This document shows, in pieces, positions 4,340 through 53,585 of a DNA stretch of 64,000 bases. Source of the stretch: Solibacillus sp. FSL R7-0682. GTDB lineage: Bacteria; Bacillota; Bacilli; Bacillales_A; Planococcaceae. A program made the translations under genes and the position numbers. The DNA is taken from NCBI RefSeq assembly GCF_038005985.1, contig NZ_JBBOUI010000001.1, forward strand, positions 479,501 to 543,500, read 5' to 3'. Numbering within the stretch: position 1 is the first letter of the stretch; every line of letters starts with the position of its first letter. The notes under the pieces are model-generated. The model made no database searches. It was not told where the DNA came from and worked only from the letters and a program-made list of their open reading frames with translations.

Positions 4340-6016
4340 TTACATTTTTTCAGGGGCTTCGATTCCTAAAAGGTTTAAACAATCTTGTAAAACGATGCTT
4401 GTCGACTTACACAATGCCAATCGACTATTTATAGAGTCATCCGGCGCTAATATTTTGGTTGTTGCATAAAATTTATTGAATGCCTTGGCCAACTGTAAGG
4501 CAAATTTTGCGATAAGAGATGGATCCATTTGTTCAAATGCTTCTGAAATAATGTTAGGATAGTTTGCTAATAGTACAACAGTCGGCCAGGCGTTATCGGT
4601 AAGTGTTATTTTTATAACGTCATCATGATATTGCAACGATGCTTTTTCTAGCATTGAGCATATTCGTGCAAACGTGTATTGTACGTATGGACCTGTTTCG
4701 CCTTTAAAATGTAACATTTGCTCAAGCGAAAATTCGATATCATTCGAACGATAATTTTTTAAATCATTAAAGATGACAGCACCTACACCAACTTTTTTTG
4801 CGACATCATCCTTATTTAGAAGGGTAGGATTTTTTTCAGTAATATTACCCTTTGCAGTGTTTATTGCTTCTTCTAATACATCCTTTAATAAAATGACATG
4901 GCCTTTTCTAGTAGACATTTTTTTGCCATCCTTGAGAATCATACCGAAACCAACATGTGATAAATGCTCTGCCCAATTTGCATCCATTTTCTTTAATACA
5001 TGGAATAGCTGTTGAAAGTGTAAAGATTGTTCATTTCCTACGACATAAAGTACCTTTTTTGGACTATAAGTTTTTTGACGATAAAAAGCAGCTGCTAAAT
5101 CACGGGTTGCATATAAAGAAGCACCATCTTGCTTTGTAATTAAACAAGGGGGCATATTATCAAGCTCTACTACATTGGCACCATCGGATAGTTTTAGTAA
5201 TTCCTTTTCCTTTAGCTGTGTAATGATGTCGGCCATTTTATCGTTATAAAATGCTTCACCTTCAAACGTGTCAAAATGGATATTCAGGAGTTCATAAATA
5301 GACTGGAATTCATCTAAAGAAGCGTCTTTAAACCATTTCCATAGAGAATTCTCTTCCAAATCACCATTTTCTAAGGCTTTAAAGGCTGCACGTGCATCAT
5401 TATTTAAGGCATCATTATTTTCGGCTTCCTCATGAAATTTTCCGTAAAGCTTCAGTAATTCCTTAATCGGAGCCTTTTCTATTGCTCCTTTTTCTCCCCA
5501 CAGACGATAGGCAACAATAAGTTTCCCAAATTGTGTTCCCCAATCGCCTAGATGATTAACTCGAACTGCATCATAACCGTTCTTTTCGGAAATATTTGCT
5601 AGTGCATTCCCAATTACCGTTGAGCGTAAATGTCCCATTGAAAATGGCTTGGCGATATTAGGGGAAGAAAAATCAATCACAACATTTTCAAATGATTGTT
5701 CTTTTTGCCCATAATTTTGTTGCTGTTTTAGAATAACAGGAATAATCTCGTTCATAACCTGTGATTTATTTAAAAAGAAATTGATATATCCCCCTACAAC
5801 GTTGATTTTTTCAAATGCTGGATTTATAAGCTGTTCAGCAAGCTCTGCAGCAATAATAGGAGGGGCTTTACGTAAAAATTTTGCTAATTGAAAACATGGG
5901 AAAGCAATATCACCGAGCTCATCATGTTTTGGTTTTTCTAACATTTTTTCAATGGCTTCTGCCTGAAATAAATAGTTTGTCTCTTCCGCAATTTTCTGGG
6001 CTAAATATTTATTCAT
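4340..6016 (-). CDS. argS: Arginyl-tRNA synthetase, ArgS2-type
   Basis: 558 residues, ATG behind AAGGAGA. Class I synthetase: the HIGH-like signature lies in SSPNIAKPFSMGHLRS (Gly128-His129) and the KMSKS loop is KMSTR at 366-370. An N-terminal Add-1-like domain (1-110) and the C-terminal anticodon-binding domain ending LGIEAPEKM are complete. It charges tRNA-Arg in the cytoplasm. The sequence resembles the second arginyl-tRNA synthetase of the Bacillus cereus group more than B. subtilis ArgS, so another argS may exist elsewhere in the genome (inference). A T-box leader immediately upstream ties its expression to uncharged tRNA-Arg. No other gene is in the transcript. Confidence 0.95.
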   Translation of the reverse strand: MNKYLAQKIAEETNYLFQAEAIEKMLEKPKHDELGDIAFPCFQLAKFLRKAPPIIAAELAEQLINPAFEKINVVGGYINFFLNKSQVMNEIIPVILKQQQNYGQKEQSFENVVIDFSSPNIAKPFSMGHLRSTVIGNALANISEKNGYDAVRVNHLGDWGTQFGKLIVAYRLWGEKGAIEKAPIKELLKLYGKFHEEAENNDALNNDARAAFKALENGDLEENSLWKWFKDASLDEFQSIYELLNIHFDTFEGEAFYNDKMADIITQLKEKELLKLSDGANVVELDNMPPCLITKQDGASLYATRDLAAAFYRQKTYSPKKVLYVVGNEQSLHFQQLFHVLKKMDANWAEHLSHVGFGMILKDGKKMSTRKGHVILLKDVLEEAINTAKGNITEKNPTLLNKDDVAKKVGVGAVIFNDLKNYRSNDIEFSLEQMLHFKGETGPYVQYTFARICSMLEKASLQYHDDVIKITLTDNAWPTVVLLANYPNIISEAFEQMDPSLIAKFALQLAKAFNKFYATTKILAPDDSINSRLALCKSTSIVLQDCLNLLGIEAPEKM

Positions 6017-6030
6017 TTTGCATCTCTCCT

Positions 6031-6282
6031 TAAAAAAAATAAGCCCCCGTCTCTAAATAATAGAGACGAGAGCTATAATTCCCGTGGTACCACTCTAGTT
6101 GCCACAAATAGTAAGTGACCCCTTTCAATTGTTAACGAGGTGACTCCCCGGCAATTCCTTCTTTATTCAGAATGCTTCTCCAAAGTGCGTTTCACTTACC
6201 TCAAATTGATTAGGCTCACACCAACCCTAATTCGCTGAACTTTTTCGATAAACTACTCTCTTTTTCTAAGAATTTAAGTATT
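6031..6282 (-). promoter_or_regulatory. T-box riboswitch (arginine) of argS
   Basis: Read on the minus strand the leader shows a stem I with the GAGAGTAG start, the AG bulge and distal loop GGTTGGTGTGAGCC closed by ATTAGG/CCTAAT, and a specifier region GTGAAACGCAC whose codon is CGC (Arg) at 6187-6189. Further down is the T-box core AGAGTGGTACCACGGG (6081-6096), followed by a terminator hairpin (6041-6074, CGTCTCTA/TAGAGACG) and a U tract at 6031-6040. Binding of uncharged tRNA-Arg to specifier and T-box is expected to form the antiterminator and switch argS on. Confidence 0.93.
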
Positions 6283-6346: not shown

Positions 6347-6803
6347 CCTTTAATCTCTTTTCCTGAGATGTATTGGCTATCATCCCTGGGTAGGCATTGG
6401 CTACAACATATACAAATTTTGTAAATATTATTCTGTAACTAATTCCCTAATTTGGCCAATCTCTTATCCCACTTCATCCTTTAATCCTAAATATTAAATT
6501 AATTCCATTATATAACAATAAATAAATGAAGGGACTAATTAGGAACAGTCAAAAAAGTTAATAACACTACTATTTAAGGTTATAGGTAATAATTTACATA
6601 TTAAATTTTACGTATTAACTTCTTTTCTCGTGAATAATAAATTTACACGTTCATGTTAACTTCCTTCTAGGTATTACCAAAAAATCATCGAATGCATCAA
6701 ATATTCATTAGAGAAAAGTACTAGTGTAGAAAAAAATATACAGGTCATTTATAATATTATGGTAATATAAATAAGTGAAATTGGTATTATTTTTAAAAAG
6801 TGA
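6347..6803. other. Intergenic AT-rich spacer between divergent regulated leaders
   Basis: No open frame with a ribosome site and no stable hairpin was found. It is very AT-rich. TATAAT at 6750-6755 is a plausible -10 for the downstream c-di-GMP leader, although no good -35 lies at the right distance. Confidence 0.5.
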
Positions 6804-6913
6804 AAAAGGCAAACTTATCGAAAGGTAGGGACGCAAAGCTACGAGTCTAAAATCCATTGGGTCATGATAGTCGGGTTGCCAACATAAACGTGTTTGTTGG
6901 GCTATTCTTTTTT
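6804..6913 (+). promoter_or_regulatory. Cyclic di-GMP-I (GEMM-I) riboswitch with overlapping terminator
   Basis: The aptamer core is unmistakable: AAAGGCAAAC at the 5' side, the GAAA tetraloop, then GGGACGCAAAGC, then a second hairpin arm and the closing strand GGGTTGCC (6873-6880). Directly after, GCCAACA (6878-6884) pairs with TGTTGGGC (6895-6902), followed by a T-rich tract (6904-6913), forming an intrinsic terminator. Its 5' arm reuses bases of the aptamer closing strand, so aptamer closing and terminator formation look mutually exclusive; this suggests c-di-GMP turns the operon on, though direction of control is inference. It precedes three co-directional genes. Confidence 0.93.
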
Positions 6914-6985
6914 AATTGGAGTAGCTTTTTCTTTTGCATAAACACGATGAATGTAGGAGTCAAATTATAGAGAAGGAGATTTGAG

Positions 6986-7345
6986 ATGATAGTTGTAGAT
7001 AAGAAGAAATATAAAATGGAAATTGATGAAACAAAGAAAGAATTACGCGTACAGGTGCATGGATTAATAAAAGAGAATGATGCAGAGCAATATTTAGTAG
7101 ACTTGCAAGAAACAATTAATAAAGTTTCGAGACAAAATTATACTTTTGTTATTGATGCTACTTACCAAACGCCAGTTCCAGCTAAGGTTGTACCTCAGCT
7201 TGAAGAAACAATGAAATTTTATTCTTCATTAGGCTTTAAAAATTTACTTATAATTAAGCCTTCATCTAAAATTGCCCAAGTTCAAATAAGAAATGTTTTA
7301 GAACGAATTGAATTTGTCGGTACTTTCATTGAAAGTACACGTTAG
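6986..7345 (+). CDS. STAS-like small protein, first gene of the c-di-GMP riboswitch operon
   Basis: 119 residues behind GAAGGAGAT. No catalytic motif. The alternating pattern (strand ELRVQVHGLI, helix DAEQYLVDLQETINKVS, strand YTFVIDATYQT, helix VVPQLEETMKFYSSLGF, strand KNLLIIKPSS, helix) fits a SpoIIAA/STAS-type fold: compare the central strand VIDAT with the usual VLD-hairpin of anti-anti-sigma proteins, although the phosphorylatable Ser after that strand is not obvious. It is therefore likely a partner-binding scaffold rather than an enzyme. It precedes GNAT-like and chemoreceptor-like genes in one transcript under c-di-GMP control. Fold assignment is moderate; function unknown. Confidence 0.6.
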   Translation: MIVVDKKKYKMEIDETKKELRVQVHGLIKENDAEQYLVDLQETINKVSRQNYTFVIDATYQTPVPAKVVPQLEETMKFYSSLGFKNLLIIKPSSKIAQVQIRNVLERIEFVGTFIESTR

Positions 7346-7370
7346 TCTAATAGAGAAATGGAGAAATTAT

Positions 7371-8081
7371 ATGCAGACAGCACAGAAGTTATATACATAT
7401 GAAATTATTACAAAAGACCAAACAGATTTAGTATATAAGGCAGCTGATTGTTTAGCACGCTCATTCGTAGGTATTGAGGTTGCTGGAAGATTAATTCAAG
7501 AGCCAATGGTTGGATGCTTACATTTAGAATATGAAGATTTCTATCATTTCACAAAGGATTACTTAGAATCTACTGTGGAACAAGGATATTGCGCAGTTGC
7601 GCTAGATCATCATCAAAATGTTGTTGGTGTACTTGCGGGTGATACAAATGCACCTGAAATTATTGGAGAAGATGTTTTTGAAGGATCTTTTTATGATATG
7701 AATGTGATTTTACATGCATTAGAAGATGTAGATCAACGTTTTATTGAAGATTATAAAAAACGATACGGAAAAGATATAGAAGATGGGGAGTTATTACATT
7801 TATTTTTATTAGGTGTAACTGCTGAACAGGAACGTCACGAAGTTATTGTTGAATTAGGAAACAAACTAATAACGAGAGCATCTGAGCAAGGCTTAAAAGC
7901 TGTTTTAGCAGAAGCAACAAACCCTAAATCAATCCGCGTAATGGAAAAATATCATGGTTTGAAGAAATATGTGGATCTAGAAGGAAACTATATTGTTCAT
8001 AAATATAAGGATAATAGTAGATTAAACATTATTCCAGAGGAAGTAGCAGATGGAACATATATCATTATAAGAGAGTTTTAA
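7371..8081 (+). CDS. GNAT-like acyltransferase of the c-di-GMP riboswitch operon
   Basis: 236 residues. The ATG at 7371 is preferred over the frame-open start at 7308 because GGAGA lies 6 nt upstream and the earlier codons overlap the previous gene. The chain shows a GNAT-like topology: N-terminal region with DCLARSFVGIEVAGRLI, a strand GYCAVALDHHQNVVGVLAGD, a long acidic helical insert (about 110-150), then LHLFLLGVTAEQERHEVIVELGNKL and the C-terminal AVLAEATNPKSIRVMEKYHGLKKY, resembling GNAT motif B. The usual Q/RxxGxG/A acetyl-CoA loop is degenerate (QERHEVI), so activity is uncertain. Position between the STAS-like and receptor genes suggests a role in the same c-di-GMP response. Confidence 0.6.
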   Translation: MQTAQKLYTYEIITKDQTDLVYKAADCLARSFVGIEVAGRLIQEPMVGCLHLEYEDFYHFTKDYLESTVEQGYCAVALDHHQNVVGVLAGDTNAPEIIGEDVFEGSFYDMNVILHALEDVDQRFIEDYKKRYGKDIEDGELLHLFLLGVTAEQERHEVIVELGNKLITRASEQGLKAVLAEATNPKSIRVMEKYHGLKKYVDLEGNYIVHKYKDNSRLNIIPEEVADGTYIIIREF

Positions 8082-8123
8082 AAAATTTATTATTAAAAAG
8101 TTAGTAGAATAGGAGATTTTTTC

Positions 8124-9215
8124 ATGGAAGTAGTCATGCTAGGAATTATTGTCGTTTTATTATGTACATCTGTGTATTTTGCTTACCGATATTTTTCTGT
8201 TAAACGCCACGCTCAAATAAATAATGAGGTAGCAAATGGAGAAAAGGAAATATCAGCAAATCAAGTACGAGAGAATTTCTATATGTTTGCCAAAAATGTT
8301 AATGAAAAAGGTAGAAACCTTACCGAACACGGGGAATACGCAGCTGAGAAGGCCGATATTGTACGAGCTGCAATCGATGAGGTAGGTAACGGATTAAAAA
8401 AACAATTAGTAGCTACGGAAGAGAGTTCAACTTCAATCGAAGATATGACAGAGGCTATCGAAGAGCTATCGATAAGGTCGAATCAGATTTCCGAACAATC
8501 AAATACTACATTAGAATTGACACAGGATGGTAACGAAAAGATAAAAGATTCGATGGTTAAAATGGAGCAATTTAATCAAACAATTAATACAACATTTGGT
8601 GCAATTACAATCCTCGGAGAAAAGTCTCATGAAATAGGTAAAATTGTTAAAGTAATTACAGGGATTTCTGAACAAATCAATTTATTAGCATTAAATGCAG
8701 CTATTGAGGCAGCTCGTGCTGGTGAACACGGTAAGGGATTTGCTGTTGTAGCTGATGAGGTTCGTAAACTAGCTGAACAATCGCGTCAGTCATCTTCAGA
8801 AGTGGCGAATATTGTAAAAAATATTCAAGAAGAAACAGATCGAGTTGTCATATCAATGAAGCAAGGAACAGAAGAGTTTGCACAAACAAATACAACAATT
8901 TTAGAAATTGGTACGATGTTTGAAAAGATAGTTGATACGACAAAAATTATTGCTGATAATAACGCGAATTCATCTGCAAGTACAGAGGAATTATCTTCAA
9001 GCTCTCAACAAATTATGGCCGCGATGAAAGAGATTTCTTTCATTTCTCGAGAGTCAGTGGAAATGTTTGAAGAATTAATTGAAATTAGTGATGACGAATT
9101 AAATACAATGCAAAGCTTAGTTGAAGAAGCAAAGAAACTGTTAGAGCTAAATAAGGATGAAAGCCTTTTTTCTCTGAATGAAGAGGTTGAAACCGAGGTA
9201 GTGAATAGAGTTTAA
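8124..9215 (+). CDS. Membrane-anchored methyl-accepting chemotaxis-type protein without a sensor domain
   Basis: 363 residues behind TAGGAG. Residues 2-24 form a single membrane segment ending in YRYFSVKRH; there is no extracellular ligand domain. The rest is a cytoplasmic antiparallel coiled coil. The conserved hairpin tip that binds CheA and CheW is intact, from [19 protein letters not shown] through [19 protein letters not shown] around residues 190-228, flanked by Gln/Glu pairs ([15 protein letters not shown]) that could be methylation sites. It could signal to the chemotaxis array or to another kinase. Because it lacks a sensor, its input probably comes from the partner proteins or from its level, which is set by the c-di-GMP riboswitch. 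Confidence 0.88.
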
Positions 9216-9225
9216 TTGCAAAATT

Positions 9226-9280
9226 AAAAACATCAAATTCAGATAGAGGTTATTTACTCTTGCTGAATTTGATGTTTTTT
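9226..9280. terminator. Bidirectional terminator between the riboswitch operon and the cupin gene
   Basis: AAACATCAAATTCAG pairs with CTGAATTTGATGTTT, with a T-run on the plus side and an A-rich lead on the other, between converging stop codons. Confidence 0.85.
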
Positions 9281-9294
9281 GAGCTTTCCTCAAT

Positions 9295-9942
9295 TTATTG
9301 CCAATAATGAGGTATATATGTTATTTGTTGATGTTGTGTTATATATTGCGGCCAATGATATTGTAGATTACTATTTTGGTCGGATGTATATTCTGTATCC
9401 GATATTACTTTGCTACAATCCGTGTAAGGACCTATATATGTACTAGGTTTAACGGGTGCAACTACTTGTTTCCATTGATTTTCATCCATGCAATAAGTAT
9501 GAGACATAATAGTGGCAGGAGTAAATTTTAATAGGTCAGAACCTAAAATAACTTCTGGAGTTGGCGCATCAAAAATTGCCAAGAGATGTGTGTTATCAAC
9601 AGTAGCTACTTCATAATGCCACCAGCCTTGTGGAATGTTTGCCACTTGACCTGGTGTAATTGAATAATTGAGAAATTGTTTTGTAAATGGGTTCAGTATC
9701 GAAATTGTAGCAGCGCCAGAAATGCAATAAACTAACTCGGCAGCATTTTGGTGATAGTGGGGTTCTATAACATTATTAGCACTTAGAAAGATATCTAGGA
9801 GAGATATATTTTCCAATGTATTCAACTGTTGTACACCTAGGACGTTAATAAAATTGTTAGTATCCTTTTTGAACAGAGGACTTTTATTTACGTCAAAGGT
9901 GAACTGAGTTGATGGCGAAGTGTAATCCTTATACGAAGCCAT
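9295..9942 (-). CDS. Cupin-domain protein
   Basis: 215 residues, ATG at 9942 with GAGGTG just upstream. A single cupin barrel: motif 1 is HYHQNAAELVYCISG (H-x-H-x4-E-x6-G, residues about 62-76), motif 2 is PGQVANIPQGWWHYEVAT with the metal-binding His. So all four usual metal ligands are present. The oxalate decarboxylase-like spacing and the tail EVILGSDLLKFTPATIM resemble one half of bicupin oxalate decarboxylases or auxin-binding-type proteins, some of which are spore-coat proteins in Bacillus. The N-terminus TSPSTQFTFDVNKSPLFK lacks a signal peptide. Substrate not known. Monocistronic, with an inverted repeat in its leader. Confidence 0.78.
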   Translation of the reverse strand: MASYKDYTSPSTQFTFDVNKSPLFKKDTNNFINVLGVQQLNTLENISLLDIFLSANNVIEPHYHQNAAELVYCISGAATISILNPFTKQFLNYSITPGQVANIPQGWWHYEVATVDNTHLLAIFDAPTPEVILGSDLLKFTPATIMSHTYCMDENQWKQVVAPVKPSTYIGPYTDCSKVISDTEYTSDQNSNLQYHWPQYITQHQQITYIPHYWQ

Positions 9943-40634: not shown

Positions 40635-40768
40635 TGTAATCACTCCTTTTCCTTTTATACGAAAAACGTATTAATTGGTTTCAAAAATAGAATATTAATT
40701 TATGGTCTTGTAAATTGTGGTACTATTCGGTACAATGAGCTTGTTCAAACAATAAAAATTAGATGTAC

Positions 40769-40912
40769 CACAAGGGGGGCCGAGTTAGTCGGCTGAGATT
40801 GCGCACGATTGCGCTGACTCTTTGAACCTGTAAGTTAACACTTGCGTAGGGATGTGGATAGAAACCGACTGTTCAAACGATAGTCAGGCTTTTGTCCTGA
40901 TTATCGTTTTTT
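40769..40912 (+). promoter_or_regulatory. TPP (THI-box) riboswitch with terminator
   Basis: The two invariant halves are visible: CGGCTGAGATTGCGC (pyrimidine-sensing helix) and the thi-box stretch TTTGAACCTGTAAG...CTTGCGTAGGGA, closed by AGGGGGGCCGAG near 40772. A terminator follows: AACGATAGTCAGG pairs with CCTGATTATCGTT, then six T (40876-40912). TPP binding should favour termination and shut off thiT. Confidence 0.95.
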
Positions 40913-40964: not shown

Positions 40965-41528
40965 ATGAACAAAACAAGATTATTAATGATGGTAGAAATT
41001 GCGATATTTGCTGCTATCGGACTCGTACTGGATCAGTTTTCATTTAAAATGTGGGCACAAGGTGGTTCAATTAGCTTTGTTATGCTACCTATTATCATAA
41101 TGGCGATTCGCTGGGGCATTACTGCTGGTTTAACTACAGGGTTATTAATTGGCGTATTACAAATGATGTTCGGTGCGTATATTTTACACTGGATGCAAGC
41201 GATTTTAGATTATGGAATTGCCTTTACGGTAGTAGGCTTAGCTGCGATTGTTCGAAAACCATTACTTGAGGCAACAAAAACGCTTGATAAGGGAAAAATG
41301 ATCTTCTATATTATAATGGGCACATTACTTGGCGGAACATTACGCTTTATTGCACATTTACTTGCAGGTGTTGTATTCTTTGGTGATTCTGCAGGAGAAA
41401 AGAATGTTTGGATATTCTCGATTATTTATAATGGGTCGTACATGTTACCAGCAACGATTATTACAGCGATTGTAGCAGTACTATTATTTACATCTGCTCC
41501 TCGCTTATTACAAACAGCGAAAAATTAA
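40965..41528 (+). CDS. thiT: Thiamine ECF transporter substrate-binding membrane protein ThiT
   Basis: 187 residues behind AAAGGGGAT, six membrane segments. The family's conserved stretches are present: EIAIFAAIGLVLD, then W-x-x-GGSISFVMLPII, IRWGITAGLTTGLLIG and HWMQAILDYGIAFTVVG (thiamine-contacting Trp and Tyr/Asp region) and TLRFIAHLLAGVVFFG. It binds thiamine and works with the shared EcfA-EcfA'-EcfT module encoded elsewhere. Control by the TPP riboswitch confirms the assignment. Confidence 0.96.
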   Translation: MNKTRLLMMVEIAIFAAIGLVLDQFSFKMWAQGGSISFVMLPIIIMAIRWGITAGLTTGLLIGVLQMMFGAYILHWMQAILDYGIAFTVVGLAAIVRKPLLEATKTLDKGKMIFYIIMGTLLGGTLRFIAHLLAGVVFFGDSAGEKNVWIFSIIYNGSYMLPATIITAIVAVLLFTSAPRLLQTAKN

Positions 41529-52254: not shown

Positions 52255-52683
52255 ATGAGTAAAATAATTTTTAACGAACATCAACGTCGACAAATTGAAC
52301 AGAATCCAAATGTCGTTTTGATAACCGATCGATCTATTCAATATACAGTAGCTTTCAAATTAAAAGCTGTTCAAGAAAATCTAAAAGGCAAAGGGCCTAC
52401 CGAAATCTTCAAAGCTGCAGGCTTTGATTTAGAAATCATCGGGATTAAAAAAGTTCAAAGTGCTGTTCATAGGTGGAAGAAAATTTATCAAACATACGGT
52501 GAGGATGGTTTTACACAAGAGCGTCGTGGAAAAGGCAGTACAGGTCGCCCACGTGCCGAAAAATTATCAGCTGATAAAAAGTTAGAGAAAGCAGAAGCTC
52601 GTATTCGTCTATTGGAAGCAGAGCTAGCGCTCTTAAAAAAGCTCGACGAAATGGAAAGGCAGGCGAAGAAGAATCGTTTTTAA
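52255..52683 (+). CDS. IS3-family transposase OrfA
   Basis: 142 residues, ATG after GGGAGA. N-terminal helix-turn-helix of the InsE/HTH_29-like kind (SIQYTVAFKLKAVQENLKGKGPTEIFKAAGFDLEIIGIKKVQSAVHRWKKIY split across the domain) that recognises the IS ends, then a basic linker RRGKGSTGRPRAEKLS and a leucine-zipper coiled coil (LEKAEARIRLLEAELALLKK). The slippery heptamer lies at the end of the zipper, so both OrfA and an OrfAB fusion can be made. Confidence 0.92.
   Translation: MSKIIFNEHQRRQIEQNPNVVLITDRSIQYTVAFKLKAVQENLKGKGPTEIFKAAGFDLEIIGIKKVQSAVHRWKKIYQTYGEDGFTQERRGKGSTGRPRAEKLSADKKLEKAEARIRLLEAELALLKKLDEMERQAKKNRF
52635..52641 (+). other. Programmed -1 frameshift site (A AAA AAG)
   Basis: In the orfA frame the codons read TTA AAA AAG; A_AAA_AAG is the classic slippery heptamer of IS3-family elements. 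The orfB frame is open from here through to its stop. Confidence 0.8.
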
Positions 52684-53585
52684 CACCCAAAGAAAAATAT
52701 CAAGCAATCAGTGAAACGATTCGATTATTTCAACTCAAAAATATGACACGGTATCTTTGTGAAGTAGCAAATGTCAGCTCGAGTGGTTACTATAAATGGC
52801 GACAAAATATGGAGAAACATTCATTACGTGAAGAAGCTGATTATCAAGATTATCTTTTACTAAAAGTAATCTATGATGAAGCAAAAGGCAAAATTGGTTA
52901 TCGAGGGTTTTATATGGAACTGGTGGACCAATTAGGGAAACCGATGAACCATAAAAAAATTCTTCGATTGATGCGTAAATTTAATTTGTATGCGAAGGTT
53001 CGTCGTGCCAATCCTTATCGACTTATAGAAAAAGCGAATGAAGCACATCGTCAAATTCCAAATTACTTAAATCGGGCATTCAAACAAGACGAGCCAGGAA
53101 AAGTCTTCTTAACAGACATTACCTATCTCCAATATAAGGGTGGCCGTACGGCTTATTTATCATGTGTAAAAGATGTCGCAACAAGAGAAATCGTTGCGTA
53201 TAAACTAGCTACTACTCTTAAATTGTCGATTGTTTATGAAACACTTGAACAATTAAAACATCATTTGGATGGGAATCTTCATCCGGAAGCAATGATTCAT
53301 TCGGATCAGGGGTTTCATTATACGCATCCAGGATTTCAGAAGCTTGTGAAAGACATGGGGTTAAAACAATCTATGTCACGTCGAGGAAACTGTCTAGATA
53401 ATGCGCCAATGGAATCGTTCTTTGGTCATTTTAAAGATGAAGTCGATTATCATGAAGCTGAAAGTTTCACGGAGCTACATACACAAGTCATTGACTATAT
53501 CACGCATTACAACCACACAAGAAAGCAATGGACATTAAAAAAGATGACTCCGGCGAGTTACCGAAGTCATCTAATCGCAGCCTAA
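52641..53585 (+). CDS. IS3-family transposase OrfB (DDE integrase), reached by frameshift
   Basis: The frame continues from the slippery site; the first ATG at 52743 could also give a free 280-residue OrfB. The protein has the HTH_21 segment (RGFYMELVDQLGKPMNHKKILRLMRK) and the retroviral-integrase-like catalytic core: Asp in VFLTDITYLQYKG, Asp in MIHSDQGFHYTHPGF and Glu in RRGNCLDNAPMESFFGHFK, i.e. an intact DDE triad with the K/R residue. It cuts and joins the IS ends. Confidence 0.93.
   Translation, partial: ARRNGKAGEEESFLTPKEKYQAISETIRLFQLKNMTRYLCEVANVSSSGYYKWRQNMEKHSLREEADYQDYLLLKVIYDEAKGKIGYRGFYMELVDQLGKPMNHKKILRLMRKFNLYAKVRRANPYRLIEKANEAHRQIPNYLNRAFKQDEPGKVFLTDITYLQYKGGRTAYLSCVKDVATREIVAYKLATTLKLSIVYETLEQLKHHLDGNLHPEAMIHSDQGFHYTHPGFQKLVKDMGLKQSMSRRGNCLDNAPMESFFGHFKDEVDYHEAESFTELHTQVIDYITHYNHTRKQWTLKKMTPASYRSHLIAA

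Follow-up and report, generated by a model that had tools for sequence, protein, structure and literature searches.

How would a chemoreceptor without a ligand domain of its own obtain its input when its gene stands behind a cyclic di-GMP (c-di-GMP) riboswitch, together with genes for two proteins of quite other folds? This question is raised by a locus in Solibacillus sp. FSL R7-0682 (contig NZ_JBBOUI010000001.1, positions 479,501 to 543,500; these 64,000 nucleotides are here together referred to as the window). A c-di-GMP-I (GEMM-I) aptamer and an intrinsic terminator are followed there by three genes, P1, P2 and P3. Chemoreceptors typically carry their own ligand domain. The anatomy of the locus, its conservation and the predicted folds of its proteins are firm. 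As the best explanation of the whole, we propose a single transcription unit under riboswitch control, a c-di-GMP-repressed chemoreceptor module with a cytoplasmic partner that responds to an amine or to coenzyme A (CoA), and we regard this explanation as evenly balanced between right and wrong.

An earlier note, made from the DNA letters alone, had described a GEMM-I aptamer with a terminator directly behind it, three co-directional genes and a closing terminator, the products being a STAS-like protein, a GNAT-like protein with a degenerate acetyl-CoA loop and a chemoreceptor without ligand domain. All of these descriptions were borne out (Table 1). The acetyltransferase type of the P2 fold, the predicted OFF polarity and the neighbouring decarboxylase and MhsT-like transporter genes of relatives, all taken up below, go beyond that note. 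The aptamer passes the curated threshold of RF01051 by a wide margin (81.6 bits, where the gathering score is 35; E 1.6e-14; covering model positions 1-87 of 87), and no second match to this model was found in the genome. A consensus terminator scan of 6600-9400 returned zero terminators, and hence neither the leader terminator nor the closing hairpin, because the scan allows no loop above 8, a limit that both hairpins exceed. A promoter scan of the same interval gave 13 sites against a mean of 13.4 in shuffles, which places the promoter-like sites at chance level.

Table 1. Features of the riboswitch-receptor locus (positions in the window)
Feature	Position	Strand	Description
Promoter-like site (TAGAAA, 17 nt, TATAAT)	6727-6755	+	upstream of aptamer; chance level
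c-di-GMP-I (GEMM-I) aptamer	6798-6883	+	RF01051 covariance model
Antiterminator strand GATAG, inside aptamer	6866-6870	+	can pair with 6902-6906; from sequence
Antiterminator strand CCAACA, aptamer 3' end	6879-6884	+	can pair with 6895-6900; from sequence
Switching strand	6895-6907	+	can pair with aptamer 3' side, or 6901-6907 with terminator 3' arm
Intrinsic terminator	6901-6935	+	7-bp stem 6901-6907 / 6919-6925, then T tract
P1 gene	6986-7345	+	119 amino acids; STAS/SpoIIAA-fold protein (predicted)
P2 gene	7371-8081	+	236 amino acids; GNAT (predicted), polyamine/arylalkylamine N-acetyltransferase type; glycine CoA loop lost
P3 gene	8124-9215	+	363 amino acids; signalling domain of a chemoreceptor, preceded by a single N-terminal hydrophobic segment
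Operon-end terminator hairpin	9226-9279	+	-27.6 kcal/mol, z -9.3

We surveyed the conservation of this arrangement at two scales. The wider scan covered one genome per species in 84,980 GTDB species with a P2 profile and short peptide patterns, which may miss members, and yielded 46 loci (here called named loci; L-numbers denote individual loci from relatives). P1, P2 and P3 stand in this order at 43 of the 46, so that a chance grouping of the three genes is ruled out, and P3 adjoins P2 at 44. L162 consists of P2-P3 at the very edge of its contig, and two loci belong to a Defluviitaleaceae bin that lacks P1 and has no P3 ortholog; no locus found with the P2 profile is titled as a species of the B. 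cereus group. An aptamer core was found before P1 by pattern search in 30 of the 43 ordered loci, and in nine of these 30 also by covariance model. A sigma-D promoter pattern had one match each in L128, L130, L131 and L155, and no match in the 500 bases before P1 in the window.

The second survey comprised 261 genomes of the window's own family, in which the coordinates of aptamer, P1 and P2 matches were compared. P2 is present in 35 genomes, and P1 has matches at E <= 0.001 in 52, several of which are distant paralogs. Under stricter filters, by which weak matches can be lost, the aptamer lies directly before P1 (or before P2 alone, L065) in 26 of the 35 P2 genomes, against none of the five family loci with P1-P3 and no P2 (Fisher p 0.003, uncorrected for kinship). 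The three-gene order behind GEMM, whose conservation the earlier note had named as support for a system, is thus widely kept, and genes standing apart or lacking GEMM were found in a minority only (the five P1-P3 loci, L065 and 13 of the 43 ordered loci). L065 and L114, of the same genus and in one genome, show the module split, with P2 alone behind an aptamer and P1-P3 about 1 Mb away without one.

Leaders of 30 named loci and of the window, 31 altogether (alignment A6), were compared for the working of the switch. All 215 cells of the terminator stem columns hold standard pairs, and one double change occurs among them. Between aptamer and terminator lies the stretch TTGGCTATC, which is near-invariant in the 31 leaders, while loops and spacers vary. 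Two pairings are open to it, one with GATAG and GCCAA on the 3' side of the aptamer and the other, through its GCTATCC part, with the 3' arm of the terminator. In 30 of the 31 leaders the duplex of this switching strand with the aptamer is stronger than that of shuffled switching strands (p <= 0.05, 200 shuffles, kinship among leaders ignored). For the window leader, the fold with both antiterminator helices has -28.4 kcal/mol and the terminator fold -29.2 kcal/mol, within 1 kcal/mol of each other. The terminator's 5' arm had been thought to reuse aptamer bases, which is not so: the two do not overlap, and the reuse concerns the antiterminator and a hairpin, 6879-6884 / 6895-6900.

The same layout, with an antiterminator made of the aptamer 3' strand and a downstream switching strand, is described for Cd1 of the Clostridioides difficile flagellar operon, an OFF switch by which low c-di-GMP permits motility genes (PMC9262584). 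Because the strand order of the window equals that of Cd1, OFF polarity is predicted, and from this analogy and the complementarity in 30 leaders (the window's not among them) the riboswitch is most likely an OFF switch. In C. difficile, each of the seven class I switches that function is described as an OFF switch (PMC6366702). The outputs differ, since Cd1 controls flagellar genes and the window operon encodes one receptor with two partner proteins. As for the ligand, G20 of Vc2 is described as a factor favouring c-di-GMP over cyclic GMP-AMP (cGAMP) (PMC9262584). The genome has 17 GGDEF and 10 EAL matches, and c-di-GMP turnover is therefore likely. Column 3 of A6, which we take to be the position of Vc2 G20, is G in 30 of the 31 leaders, including the window. 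In L145 (4350-4486, Niallia circulans) it is A, and the selectivity of that aptamer may shift toward cGAMP.

P3 is the only one of the three proteins with a Pfam family above cut-off, namely MCPsignal (PF00015, residues 124-305, 145.2 bits against a cut-off of 34.6, 2.2e-42), and no sensor or HAMP family appeared in its Pfam search up to E 1. Its hydropathy profile has one hydrophobic segment, at the N terminus, followed by a coiled-coil arm; the hairpin tip, judged by eye, resembles the canonical form for contact with CheA/CheW (alignment A3). Two methylation-like motifs are at 284 and 291. Since the genome has 24 MCPsignal and 4 CheW-domain matches, a chemotaxis array for P3 to join is likely.

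The history of P3 was examined by tree tests with 20 rows per protein chosen from the sequences in hand; a 53-row P3 tree is an unfinished quick tree. The window P3 is 87% identical to the copy of L077, and P1 and P2 of L077 are only 56% and 64% identical to those of the window. P3 groups with the Lysinibacillus-type copies, and its placing with the other type is rejected (p 3e-57). The P1 and P2 trees reject the window next to L077, L076 and L124 inside the Lysinibacillus-type group (p 1e-7 and 4e-5). A sister position to that whole group passes the test for P1 (p 0.39) and P3 (p 0.055) without being rejected, and appears for P2 in a quick tree with support 88. As this position is not rejected in any of the three proteins, we dropped the idea of an operon recombined from two lineages; a receptor gene exchange is possible, and the sequences are compatible with vertical history. 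In L149, from a record titled Paenibacillus sp. FSL R5-0490, P1-P3 group with Cytobacillus oceanisediminis, which may reflect either a mistaken label or a transfer of the operon.

P2 is predicted to have a GNAT fold of the polyamine/arylalkylamine N-acetyltransferase type. It shares the fold over nearly its whole length, and may share the Thr/Ser and Ser positions and a Glu-Pro pair, with insect arylalkylamine, agmatine and polyamine N-acetyltransferases and with the PBCV-1 A654L polyamine acetyltransferase, but differs from them in its identity of at most 20%, in the absence of CoA-loop glycines and in its place beside a receptor and a STAS protein. E44, T183 and S187 are candidates for the catalytic Glu, Ser/Thr and Ser of the insect-type enzymes and, like P45, are invariant in the 33 sequences compared. 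In 5k9n, T167 and S171 are the residues aligned with T183 and S187; E44-P45 aligns with 3qb8 in a weak second segment only and is matched to Glu-34/Pro-35 of AgmNAT by spacing only. The CoA loop is different: R155 is kept in 33/33 and followed by H, Q, R or K; at 157, 31 sequences have E or D, one has S and one G; and Gly at 158-160 occurs in none. P2 thus departs from the usual GNAT acetyl-CoA motif, Q/R-x-x-G-x-G/A. In the Defluviitaleaceae bin, the P2 of L169 lies 55 nt after a HAMP/PAS receptor (with an sCache match below cut-off), which is a separate pairing of P2 with a receptor; a phmmer search of the PDB with this P2 gave no match. Carriage of P2 by plasmids or phages was also considered and rejected, as tblastn gave no match at E <= 1e-5 in either collection.

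P1 has a STAS/SpoIIAA-like fold in the predicted model, shared with STAS proteins of the SpoIIAA/RsbS type. It differs from these in identity (5-14% among the STAS rows of the structure matches, down to rank 28), in its operon partner, a chemoreceptor, and in position 66, presumably the helix-2 start where SpoIIAA is phosphorylated, which is Ser in 25, Arg in 4 and Ala in one (the window) of 30 sequences, so that a phosphorylatable residue is not conserved there. The sequence search of the PDB gave nothing meaningful for P1, and NCBIfam no usable match for P1 or P2. P1-like proteins were also seen elsewhere: in four genomes (L121, L122, L123 and L126) a distant one precedes a KAS III-like gene of about 325 amino acids (by eye), an uncharacterised pair, and in three genomes (L117, L118 and L119) P1-like proteins with 36-40% identity lie beside similar small genes of 161-200 amino acids.

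The neighbours of the operon in relatives point to a class of ligand. A pyridoxal phosphate-dependent (PLP) decarboxylase gene is present in the fetched flanks of 28 of the 46 named loci, downstream on the same strand in 24 and upstream in four (three of these on the opposite strand, the L163 copy in two pieces). In the family, decarboxylase relatives at E <= 1e-60 occur in 54 of 261 genomes, and copies at least 84% identical in 11, all directly beside the operon. Its matches to substrate families (aspartate, diaminobutyrate, tyrosine, histidine, glutamate decarboxylases and others) are all far below cut-off. Four loci also have an SNF transporter that, among PDB entries, matches 4us3 (MhsT) best (E 4e-101). 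Of the 28 decarboxylase loci, 12 were scanned by covariance model, and in six of the 12 (L144, L145, L146, L153, L154 and L164) the decarboxylase or the transporter has a c-di-GMP riboswitch before it; those of L145 and L154 belong to the GGC type (RF03167). A search of part of the flank with the core pattern showed no second core in the remaining 16; this pattern missed the one of L146.

From these findings the following mechanism can be proposed. At low c-di-GMP, the aptamer 3' strand would pair with the switching strand as an antiterminator and P1-P2-P3 would be made; at high c-di-GMP, the folded aptamer would free the switching strand and the terminator would form. P3 would be a membrane-anchored signalling domain that reaches CheA/CheW, and its input would most likely be cytoplasmic, through P2 and P1. 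P2 would be an acetyltransferase-fold protein with catalytic-type residues kept on the amine side, its CoA loop having been rebuilt; P1 would serve as an adaptor with the STAS fold. What the module reports to the chemotaxis array would be an amine, or the CoA state, and it would do so only in motile cells with low c-di-GMP; cells may thereby switch on an unusual internal chemical sense. The earlier note had suggested receptor level or partner occupancy as the input, and either may be so. Polarity, the binding of P1 and P2 to P3, the ligand class and the coupling to CheA are all inferred. That P1 and P2 would feed P3 is suggested by receptor linkage in two separate contexts, and an amine as the probable ligand by the fold, the kept residues and the decarboxylase and transporter of relatives. 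A fuller version appears unlikely when all of its parts are taken jointly. In it, P2 would be a retired arylalkylamine/polyamine N-acetyltransferase reused as an intracellular amine sensor, which with P1 drives the sensorless P3; the loci of many relatives would decarboxylate, and some import, amino acids (the latter by MhsT-like transporters), several under further c-di-GMP riboswitches, and c-di-GMP would decide whether the amine signal is made or can be followed or measured.

The main rival, which is possible but which we hold to be rather unlikely, is that P2 is a working amine N-acetyltransferase for detoxification or turnover of the decarboxylation product, with P1 and P3 merely co-regulated in a metabolic and motility unit that has no sensing complex. 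P2 may simply be an enzyme because residues of the catalytic type are kept in all sequences, a view which the decarboxylase flanks, the four MhsT-like transporters and the lone P2 behind the aptamer of L065 also favour. The lost glycines, the acidic residue at 157, the nearly constant adjacency of P3 and the different receptor beside the P2 of L169 speak against this rival. One observation is unfavourable to both: the window genome lacks the decarboxylase beside the operon and has in its place no more than a 52% paralog at a distance of 2.7 Mb. The weak alignment and the spacing on which the likeness of E44 to known enzymes depends tell against our proposal as well.

Further evidence against the c-di-GMP-repressed module concerns the switch itself. 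The window leader is the sole exception among the 31 in its complementarity (p 0.145), its strand having an extra G, and its best fold without constraints (-29.5 kcal/mol) corresponds to neither of the two states in pure form. Almost nothing can be drawn from covariation among such similar leaders, with one double change in the terminator and none in the aptamer part. Nor is OFF polarity class-wide: Bc2 is described as an ON switch (PMC6366702), and Bc1, which precedes the chemoreceptor gene mcpE in the B. cereus group, binds c-di-GMP and turned reporters on in B. subtilis, yet barely changed McpE levels in vivo (PMC11218506). Moreover, no aptamer was found by covariance model before P1 on that strand in the 13 other ordered loci, nor beside the operon in nine of the 35 family P2 genomes (among them G019, truncated at the edge of its contig). 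The module thus does not depend on c-di-GMP gating. It could therefore be that the aptamer binds c-di-GMP and hardly alters expression, or acts as an ON switch, with the operon controlled mostly by its promoter. We consider this improbable in view of the near-invariant switching strand amid variable loops and spacers, the significant complementarity in all other leaders and the layout of Cd1. STAS proteins often belong to stress or anti-sigma pathways, and P1 might work in one with P3 as its scaffold and no chemotaxis receptor; with the helix-2 site not conserved and the hairpin tip of P3 canonical by eye, this is very improbable.

The absence of any described system of this exact composition, as the earlier note had it, stands in part. 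No paper on an operon of STAS, acetyltransferase-like and sensorless receptor genes turned up in an openly licensed library of papers, but Bc1-mcpE is an earlier example of a chemoreceptor gene preceded by a c-di-GMP-I riboswitch (PMC11218506, PMC4933901, PMC6366702). That system has in common with the window a c-di-GMP-I riboswitch and an intrinsic terminator before a chemoreceptor gene in a Bacillus relative. It differs in lying upstream of mcpE itself, in its two terminators and in its small effect in vivo, and the passages on it mention no STAS or acetyltransferase-like partner (PMC11218506, PMC4933901). For B. methanolicus, four c-di-GMP riboswitches are described, two of them before genes of unknown function (PMC4342826). 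The operon, mostly behind a c-di-GMP riboswitch, offers a testable case of a metabolic-enzyme fold as detachable sensor of a chemotaxis receptor, where the riboswitch would decide when such a sense exists and the neighbouring decarboxylase and transporter genes of relatives suggest which class of ligand to try. If P2 is an ordinary enzyme, amine metabolism would still be tied to c-di-GMP and chemotaxis in many Bacillales.

Elsewhere in the window, a T-box leader (6059-6277, minus strand, 119.9 bits) stands before a gene with the look of an arginyl-tRNA synthetase (4340-6016, minus strand, by eye). A thiamine pyrophosphate (TPP) riboswitch (40763-40869, plus strand, 69.4 bits) precedes a gene (40965-41528) whose product, a small membrane protein, is by its look probably a thiamine transporter, and an IS3-type transposase in two open reading frames (by eye) occupies 52255-53585 on the plus strand.
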